Assembly: GCA_947453965.1 (NCBI GenBank)
Contig: CANGIQ010000014.1
Span: 1-64,000 of the forward strand
Direction of reading: 5' to 3'
DNA length: 64,000 nt
Source: Comamonadaceae bacterium
Lineage (GTDB): Bacteria > Pseudomonadota > Gammaproteobacteria > Burkholderiales > Burkholderiaceae_C
Below are positions 51,734-53,982 of this stretch, in pieces. Under the pieces are notes generated by a model, which worked only from the letters and a program-made list of their open reading frames with translations, searched no databases and was not told the origin of the DNA. Both the position numbers and the translations under genes were made by a program. The first letter of the stretch is position 1, and every line of letters begins with the position of its first letter.

Positions 51734-52600
51734 TCAGGCCTCCGAACGTGGTTGCTTGTCGCGGGCGTAGCCCCACAGGTACTGGCCCGGGGCATGCCGC
51801 ACCATGGCTTCGACCGCACGGTTCACGGCCGCGGCCGCTTGCTCGGGCGTGGCTGTGCTGTCTTGCAACTCAGGCGCCTCCCAAGGGCGCATGTGCATGC
51901 AAAAGCCTTGTCCGGGGGGCAAACGCTCGCACCAGGTGAGGAGAACACGGGCTCCGGTTTGCTGGGCCAGCTTGGCCAGCAAGGTCATGGTGTAGACATC
52001 ACGGCCAAAAAAAGGCGCCCAGACGCCTTGCCCCAGCGGTGGCACCTGGTCGGGCAAGATGGCGGTGTAGCCGCCACCTCGCAAGGTGCGAATCAGCGTG
52101 CGCACGCCTGCCAACGAGGTAGGGGCAGACTCTAAGTAAGGGCGGGTCCGTGCATTGGCCACCAGTGGCTCCAACCAAGCTTTGCGAGCCGGGCGAAACA
52201 GGGCAACCATGGGCCCGTAGGTGGGACCGAATTTTTCAGCAATCGCTTGCGCGCCAATTTCCCAACAGCCCAAATGCGGCGACAGAATGATGGCGCCCCG
52301 GCCGGCTTGCATGGCCGCTTCAAAATGTTCGGCGCCTTCCCACCGGATCAAGCCCTCTAAGGACGCGCCATGGGGACGCATCCACACCCAGGGCAGCTCA
52401 GCCACCATGGCCCCAATAGCGCCCACCGCAGGACGCGCATCCCGCCAAGCTACACCTGCCGCACGCACATTCGCTTGGAAAGTGCGGCGGTAACTGGGTG
52501 ACAGCGCCCACACCAACCAGCCCAACACCCGCCCCAAGCGCTGCATCACAGGCAGCGGCACGCGCGCGAGCAAATGAAAGAGTCGGGTCACGGCAGACAT
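51734..52600 (-). CDS. lpxL: Lipid A lauroyl acyltransferase-like protein, HX4E form
   Basis: The 288-residue product is a second LpxL-family acyltransferase with the motif H109-LGCW-E114 and the segment ILPDQVPPLGQGVWAPFFG. It shares low obvious identity with the downstream paralogue. The two genes are 3 nt apart and divergent from metK, an order I recall from Burkholderiales. Which one makes the first and which the second acyl transfer is not evident. Confidence 0.87.
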   Translation of the reverse strand: MSAVTRLFHLLARVPLPVMQRLGRVLGWLVWALSPSYRRTFQANVRAAGVAWRDARPAVGAIGAMVAELPWVWMRPHGASLEGLIRWEGAEHFEAAMQAGRGAIILSPHLGCWEIGAQAIAEKFGPTYGPMVALFRPARKAWLEPLVANARTRPYLESAPTSLAGVRTLIRTLRGGGYTAILPDQVPPLGQGVWAPFFGRDVYTMTLLAKLAQQTGARVLLTWCERLPPGQGFCMHMRPWEAPELQDSTATPEQAAAAVNRAVEAMVRHAPGQYLWGYARDKQPRSEA

Positions 52601-52606
52601 GGACGG

Positions 52607-52636
52607 TTGTCAATACACAAAGAGTTGAACTAGAAT
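52607..52636 (+). promoter_or_regulatory. Probable sigma-70 promoter of metK
   Basis: TTGTCA (52607-52612) and TAGAAT (52631-52636) are separated by 18 nt. The predicted start near 52643 leaves a leader of about 155 nt. Confidence 0.6.
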
Positions 52637-52642
52637 ACAGAT

Positions 52643-52797
52643 TGTCGCCGAGTTAAAGAACTACTTGCAGGGCGACAACACACCACGGTGTGACGGCGAG
52701 GGGCCAGCCCCGAGCTTCTGCTAAAGCGTTCGCTGGGCTCCAAGTTTTCAGGGTCGGCAACGCCGAACAACCTGTTGAAAACTTAGGAGCTTTTTTC
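52643..52797 (+). promoter_or_regulatory. Structured metK leader, candidate attenuator or riboswitch
   Basis: The leader can form GTCGCC/GGCGAC (52644-52676), a CACAC/GTGTG hairpin, a GGGG/CCCC hairpin (52700-52711), and a long terminal stem-loop. In the last, GCTCC (52737-52741) pairs with GGAGC (52786-52790) and AAGTTTTCA (52742-52750) with TGAAAACTT (52776-52784), followed by six T residues. The AGGAG Shine-Dalgarno is in the 3' arm. GAGC (52712-52715) could instead pair with GCTC (52737-52740) around an AGCG/CGCT hairpin, opening the terminal stem. No known SAM riboswitch consensus is recognised. Confidence 0.65.
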
Positions 52798-53982
52798 ATG
52801 TCTCACGACTTTCTCTTCACCTCTGAATCCGTCTCAGAAGGCCATCCCGACAAAGTGGCTGACCAAATCTCGGACGCGATTTTGGACGCCATCTTCGAAC
52901 AAGACCCCCGCAGCCGCGTGGCTGCCGAAACCCTGACCAACACCGGCTTGGTCGTGCTGGCGGGTGAAATCACCACCAACGCGCACGTCGACTACATCCA
53001 AGTCGCCCGCGACACCATCAAGCGCATCGGCTACGACAACACCGACTACGGCATCGACTACAAAGGTTGCGCCGTGATGGTCTGCTATGACAAGCAATCC
53101 AACGATATTGCCCAAGGTGTGGACCACGCCTCTGACGACCACCTCAACATCGGCGCCGGTGACCAAGGCCTGATGTTTGGCTATGCATGCAGCGAAACGC
53201 CTGAGTTGATGCCTGCCCCCATCTATTACGCCCACCGTTTGGTCGAACGCCAAGCCCAGTTGCGCAAAGACGGCCGCCTGCCTTTCTTGCGTCCTGATGC
53301 CAAGAGCCAGGTAACCATGCGCTATGTGGACGGCAAGCCCCACAGCATCGACACCGTGGTGTTGTCGACCCAACACAGCCCTGACCAAAGCGAGTCGGCC
53401 ACCAAGATGAAGGCCAGCTTCAATGAAGCCATCATCGAAGAGATCATCAAACCCGTGTTGCCCAAAGAGTGGTTGCAAGACACCAAGTATTTGATCAACC
53501 CCACCGGTCGTTTCGTCATCGGCGGCCCACAAGGCGATTGCGGTTTGACCGGCCGCAAGATCATTGTGGACACCTACGGTGGCGCCTGCCCCCACGGTGG
53601 TGGCGCGTTCTCCGGCAAAGACCCCTCTAAAGTGGACCGCTCTGCCGCTTACGCCGCCCGCTATGTGGCGAAAAACATCGTGGCCGCTGGCTTGGCCAAG
53701 CAATGCCAAGTGCAAGTGGCTTACGCGATTGGCGTGGCGCGCCCCATGAACATCACGGTGAACACGGCGGGTACTGGCGTGATCTCTGACGACAAATTGT
53801 CAGCACTGGTGGCCGAGCACTTTGACTTGCGCCCCAAAGGCATCATTCAAATGCTCGACTTGCTGCGTCCCATCTACAGCAAGACGGCGGCTTATGGTCA
53901 CTTTGGTCGTGAAGAGCCTGAGTTCACTTGGGAGCGTACTGACAAGGCTGCTGCATTGAAGGCTGCGGCTGGCGTGAAGTAA
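52798..53982 (+). CDS. metK: S-adenosylmethionine synthetase MetK
   Basis: MetK makes SAM from methionine and ATP. The 394-residue product begins [18 protein letters not shown] and has the signature [12 protein letters not shown], the phosphate-binding [19 protein letters not shown] and VDTYGG. Length is standard. The ATG at 52798 is chosen for the family N-terminus and the AGGAG 8 nt upstream; the longer frame lies in the structured leader. A terminator follows at 54006. Confidence 0.98.

Follow-up and report, generated by a model that had tools for sequence, protein, structure and literature searches.

Eight classes of SAM riboswitch are set out in PMC13314739, and none of them corresponds to the metK leader element analysed here. 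The most similar system is SAM-II (RF00521, SAM_alpha), with which the leader shares an H-type P1/P2 pseudoknot, a GA.UU, UUGC and GCUAAA core, an association with methionine and SAM genes (here metK) and a promoter right before P1. The fully conserved pocket positions of SAM-II are U10–U12, U20–C23 and G42–A47 (PMC3764141), and SAM-II elements with terminators are described in alpha- and betaproteobacteria (PMC2258182). SAM-V (RF01826) shares the type of pocket, the H-type pseudoknot and translational OFF control (PMC6061858), and a SAM-II and SAM-V tandem has been reported to act at two levels (PMC11508383). Two other families invite comparison: RF01726, by its name SAM-II with expanded loops, reported from Bacteroidetes and marine sequences (PMC2864571), and the SAM/SAH riboswitch (RF01727), a pseudoknot that precedes metK in Rhodobacterales. 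In betaproteobacteria, Leyn et al. (2014, PMC4239095) described a pseudoknot element with six conserved regions and, as in the leader studied here, a second, competing pairing; it was assigned no ligand and differs in preceding metX and metZ, not metK, and in its reported terminators. The same survey of methionine control in Proteobacteria gave the betaproteobacterial metK regulator as unknown, its own search having been unsuccessful. Our searches of the open-licence literature turned up no description of a betaproteobacterial metK leader of the SAM-II type.

The window is a 64,000-nucleotide stretch of contig CANGIQ010000014.1 from a Comamonadaceae bacterium. On its forward strand, which carries all features of the leader given below, metK (52798–53982; ATG at 52798–52800) encodes a 394-aa SAM synthetase whose three S-AdoMet_synt Pfam domains (N, M and C) all score above their cut-offs; its leader is about 155 nt long. 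A consensus scan (10 of 12 positions matching) found a promoter-like element at 52607–52636, made of TTGTCA (52607–52612), an 18-nt spacer and TAGAAT (52631–52636), and transcription is expected to start at about 52642, the predicted first base of P1. A −10-like hexamer directly 5′ of the first stem recurs in 84 of 87 metK-type leaders (shuffled mean 17.8), with an additional −35-like hexamer in just 22 of the 87 (2.0 in shuffles). The preliminary description had held that a start downstream of 52737 would speak against its proposal; the promoter signals give such a start no support. The divergent neighbour of metK (51734–52600, minus strand) encodes a lipid A acyltransferase (PF03279).

Searched against Rfam 15, the whole window gave a single match, to a tRNA, and the leader, at E up to 10, gave a chance snoRNA match (8.5 bits) and nothing else. 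RF00521 matched neither the window at its gathering score nor the leader at E up to 10, and RF01826, RF01726 and RF01727 had no leader match at E up to 10. SAM-V differs from the leader also in its P1/P3 layout and its hosts, and RF01727 in its lineage. The preliminary description had seen a candidate new regulatory RNA before metK with no known SAM riboswitch consensus. The lack of an Rfam match agrees with it, and a regulatory RNA at this place stands; what it overlooked is a SAM-II-like aptamer at 52642–52731, which makes the RNA a variant of a known riboswitch class rather than a new and unrelated one.

The conserved RNA (52642–52734) opens the leader, upstream of the long stem before metK. 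Judged by comparison of related sequences, it is an H-type pseudoknot (52642–52731) arranged like SAM-II, of which the stem, the Shine–Dalgarno sequence (SD) and the T tract would be only the expression platform. P1 pairs UUGUCGCC (52642–52649) with GGCGACAA (52671–52678), the latter strand identified by covariation. Between the two strands lie the third-strand loop GAGUUAA (52650–52656; SAM-II G8–A14, with G at 52652 replacing U10), the P2a 5′ strand GAAC (52658–52661) and the P2b 5′ strand CUUGCA (52664–52669), which holds the SAM-II core U20 U21 G22 C23 as a UUGC that all 82 aligned elements share without change. The P2b 3′ strand and pocket form one conserved block, UGCUAAAG (52719–52726; SAM-II G42–A47, U44 being 52722 and A47 52725), in which GCUAAA and the next G are identical in 82/82. 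GUUC (52728–52731), recognised by covariation, pairs with GAAC to complete P2a.

Aligning metK leaders and looking for covariation had been proposed in the preliminary description, and in 82 relatives the P1/P2 pseudoknot covaries. The alignment drew on 81 loci, and 82 elements were aligned to R1, a covariance model of 10 sequences that contains P1 only, the P2 pairs being named separately; the sets of 82, 84 and 87 elements used throughout are non-random, their loci having been chosen by match to the window or to R1. Across P1 and P2, 96.3% of cells are paired, and nine pairs show two-sided changes, amounting to 144 compensatory cells (58 in P1 and 86 in P2). Since R1 holds P1 only, the 86 P2 cells were not fitted by the model. 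The covariation score of 0.302 compares with 0.139 under shuffling (reached in 0 of 500), a control that leaves relatedness in, and with at most 0.105 for slid partners, a control that removes it. In P1, two-sided changes occur at 5 of 6 counted pairs. In P2a, column pairs 20–107 (C-G 25, G-C 20, A-U 4, U-G 4, 26 unpaired), 21–106 (G-C 44, A-U 27) and 22–105 vary on both sides, with 23–104 invariant; the last pair of P2b (31–95) is A-U in 44, G-C in 32, G-U in 3, other in 1 and gapped in 2, and five P2 pairs are invariant overall.

By our own mapping, which assigned SAM-II numbering to alignment columns through the conserved blocks, 12 of the 13 SAM-II pocket positions (U11, U12, U20, U21, G22, C23, G42, C43, U44, A45, A46 and A47) are identical in 82/82, columns 13 and 14 (U11 and U12) being U throughout. 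The exception is U10 (column 12), where 65 of the 82 have G and the other 17 have U. A simple parser, run on 167 elements after removal of doubles (with one misparse, L025), found G10 in 92 of 120 elements of the metK-leader kind modelled by R1 (type B) and in 2 of 47 SAM-II (type-A) elements, one of the 2 being a misparse. An exact G10 pattern, which fixes G10 and is uninformative on U10, occurred in at least 120 stretches of the named genomes; among the matches listed, 105 lay before metK by script and one more (L219) by eye. Two exact patterns searched in viral contigs gave 0 matches each.

This skew raises the possibility that the same pseudoknot binds another ligand, with U10→G shifting specificity to a different adenosyl compound such as SAH, which we regard as quite unlikely. 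The occurrence of types A and B in tandem, as different sensors might be arranged, would fit it, and the structure of SAM-V can be read both ways: the U10-equivalent base there is bonded to the very U with which the SAM adenine pairs, but makes no contact with SAM itself (PMC6061858). Against a change of ligand, the readers of the sulfonium charge, U11 and U21, are retained, and type-B elements before metK carry either base (G10 in 79 and U10 in 7, by the parser), even within a single family, f4, where L115 has U and L155, L171 and L175 have G, all before metK. This interchange argues for one ligand, and the pocket, the gene and neighbouring SAM riboswitches together point to SAM.

Rfam's SAM_alpha model matched 9 of 20 given loci, at type-A places only (36.2 to 22.5 bits), and exceeded its cut-off of 36 in one locus (36.2 bits; next best 35.3). 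Our own model of 15 betaproteobacterial type-A elements (R2) reached the short-loop metK copies L045, L098, L116, L038, L141, L127 and L139 with 43.4 to 33.9 bits. On the window copy it found only a fragment (11.6 bits, E 0.17), with other given metK copies likewise weak; R1, the type-B model, scored the window at 84.9 bits, the window itself being part of that model. The sequence link from the window to accepted SAM-II members is in this sense an indirect one. We attribute the weak R2 score to the window's enlarged, two-hairpin loop. Predicted folding of the loop segment gives an extra hairpin at 52679–52692 (CACAC CACG GUGUG) and a second at 52695–52716. In the window's genus this two-hairpin loop has a median of 43 nt and replaces a loop of median 25 nt; fold z-scores were used here instead of covariation because MAFFT failed to line up the hairpins, and 30 of 31 same-genus loops folded with z < −1 (mean z −3.05 against mononucleotide shuffles). 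Three same-genus metK leaders (L025, L028 and L036) have loop insertions of about 100 nt and keep both pseudoknot strands.

Compared with SAM-II, then, the window differs in its G at position 10, its two loop hairpins, its metK target, its SD-sequestering platform with an anti-pseudoknot helix, and its lack of a match to the Rfam model. We class the leader as a variant because its workings would be SAM-II-like, but U10 is replaced and the Rfam cut-off, tested directly, is not reached. Type-A elements, a sister form of the window's element, occur by the parser in 9 of 12 fetched betaproteobacterial metX leaders, and we take the metXZ element of Leyn et al. to be this type-A (SAM-II) element, a likeness drawn in outline from the published description. 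The metX leader of the window's own genome (L081), read by eye, holds no such element. RF02424 (Bp2_287, a Burkholderia sRNA) gave below-cut-off matches on the strand opposite SAM_alpha-type elements at L121, L120, L104, L112, L085 and L086, and this family may describe SAM-II elements of betaproteobacteria as read from their antisense strand.

Downstream of the pseudoknot, the long stem before metK noted in the preliminary description is present at about 52735–52792: segment 52730–52798 folds at −26.7 kcal/mol (z −3.90), with 0 of 200 shuffles equally good. Its 5′ foot, an anti-SD at 52735–52741, pairs in the predicted fold with about 52786–52792, placing the SD AGGAG (52785–52789) in the 3′ arm, as described; six T residues (52791–52796) follow before the ATG. 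The earlier suggestion was that this stem could block both transcription and translation. Its capacity to hide the SD holds up, and the SD pairs with the upstream leader through at least five consecutive pairs in 73 of 84 leaders (a raw count, without a shuffle control). Termination at T6 as a general mechanism we reject, the T tract not being conserved: of the 31 same-genus leaders, 17 have a run of at least five T before the start, but such runs mostly disappear outside the genus (3 of 53). Translation control is accordingly the common feature of these leaders.

That the aptamer acts mainly on transcription, with the T6 stem as an intrinsic terminator formed when SAM is bound, therefore appears doubtful in view of the 3 of 53 leaders with T runs set against the 73 of 84 with SD complementarity, and a simple terminator scan did not list the metK leader stem. 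It would nonetheless agree with the position of T6 right after the stem, with the T runs of same-genus leaders, with the terminators reported to be linked to betaproteobacterial SAM-II (PMC2258182) and with the one that type A at L104 appears, by eye, to have too. Far less credible, indeed scarcely so, is a terminator governed by a GAGC/GCTC antiterminator and unrelated to known riboswitches, the pairing put forward in the preliminary description. GAGC (52712–52715) and GCTC (52737–52740) are complementary in the window, but only in 16 of 84 metK leaders could the flanks form any 4-bp pairing at all (shuffled mean 13.1, maximum 20), and what is conserved in the leader is the pseudoknot. This lack of conservation contradicts the scheme, and in the predicted fold GAGC sits inside the second loop-insertion hairpin.

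A different competing pairing is better conserved. The 3′ strand of P2, GCGUYGCC, is complementary to a downstream GGYAACGC-like element; in the window, GCGUUCGCU (52726–52734) can pair with GGCAACGC (52756–52763) through one bulge, and since the former overlaps P2, the two structures exclude each other. Of the 84 metK leaders, 60 contain the 3′ element, GGY(n0-2)RCGY, and 24 lack it; shuffled sequences gave a mean of 8.0 and a maximum of 14. Two leaders with GCGUCACC carry GGUAACGC (L140 and L159), a compensating change. Duplex energy reached p 0.05 in just 34 of 84 leaders (mean z −1.52; window z −1.51, p 0.085). This anti-pseudoknot helix appears in the predicted folds of 59 of 60 nascent segments, a partly circular figure because those leaders were selected by the element, and of 29 of 60 full leaders. 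Three or four SD bases were paired in 44 of 59 cases with the 5′ part free and in 56 of 59 with the first 14 nt held as in P2; the SD is thus more often paired when P2 is held, the direction expected of an OFF switch.

On this comparative evidence, we consider it likely that a variant aptamer of the SAM-II type makes the metK leader an OFF riboswitch responding to SAM. At low SAM, the nascent RNA would form the anti-pseudoknot helix, with the anti-SD inside its loop and the SD open; the strand that closes P2, GCGUUCGC, would pair instead with the downstream GGCAACGC, an alternative backed by the comparison of leaders. At high SAM, the pseudoknot would be locked, GGCAACGC would fold into a small hairpin of its own and the long SD-hiding stem would form, which in the window's clade may additionally end transcription at its T6 end. 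In the window, the SD stem stands at −28.7 against −12.9 for the nascent anti-pseudoknot helix, and whether or not P2 is formed, the equilibrium fold hides the SD, so switching would need a kinetic order of folding. So strong and fixed a stem could also belong to a leader that sequesters the SD constitutively, or binds a protein, without any small-molecule ligand. With the SAM-II pocket retained and other SAM riboswitches adjoining, we hold such a leader to be very improbable.

A DNA search of 61 genomes had matches in 48, and 33 of the 36 same-genus relatives were among them. Short parts of the 5′ hairpin were matched at further places too, for instance at a second site in the window's own genome (contig C6) and at one in G017. 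The shared motif consists of the P1 hairpin, the loop GA(G/U)UUA...CAACUUGC(A/G)GGGCG, a variable linker and (U/C)GCUAAAGCGUYG. With E up to 0.01 as the limit, R1 found matches in 170 of the order's 399 genomes searched. In a class-wide draw it matched 27 of 369 genomes; three of these were the own genome and members of its family, and many of the remaining matches were weak. A metK gene was present in 139 of 140 drawn order genomes; 138 of these were compared, G128 being left out for its broken metK. An R1 (type-B) match lay no more than 330 nt upstream of metK in 37 of the 138, leaving 101 without one. For this count, 112 R1 matches were placed relative to metK, 72 by script and 40 by eye, none of the 40 lying that close to a listed metK. 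The element is thus common across the order without being anywhere near universal, and the strict R1 filters may lose some elements.

At 17 loci, a type-A element is followed 97–201 nt downstream by type B. Several such tandems (L120–L123, L126, L128, L151 and others) precede a protein that starts with MYDC and has about 97 aa, and the frame after it at L121 resembles, by eye, a MATE transporter. At L104, the terminator seen by eye lies between the two types. It is possible, though unlikely, that G10 metK-type aptamers are a distinct sub-class with a re-tuned pocket, in which the base buttressing U44 has changed from U to G and confers another affinity or another ligand such as SAH. If so, a tandem of type A (terminator) and then type B (start codon) would compute on two different signals.

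Other SAM riboswitches also adjoin type-B elements. At L110 (1501–1715, minus strand), the element immediately upstream of type B, on the strand that type B occupies, is a SAM-I/IV aptamer scoring 44.5 bits against a cut-off of 41.1; by eye, a terminator-like hairpin separates the two aptamers and the following ORF resembles the MoxR-like ATPase of L032. L032 itself (1347–2433; contig C17 of G017) has a DUF3293 gene preceded by SAM-I/IV (57.3 bits) and an AAA_5 (MoxR-like) gene preceded by type B, bringing several SAM riboswitch classes into a single small cluster. In the own genome, a cluster of island-like genes (L124 10586–13490; C6 28585–31489) contains three SAM-type elements: one type B before a 159-aa orphan, a SAM-V-like match of 40.3 bits, just under its cut-off of 41, ahead of a 210-aa orphan, and another type B after a DUF3293 gene; an HD_4 gene is also situated in between.

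The natural pair of U10 and G10 offers a handle on what the pocket's second shell does in SAM-II, and the leader illustrates how a 50-base loop insertion together with one pocket change can conceal a known riboswitch from a curated model. For the betaproteobacteria, the element fills the gap left by the missing metK regulator with a precise model, and this leader RNA probably explains how many of them lower metK when SAM is plentiful.
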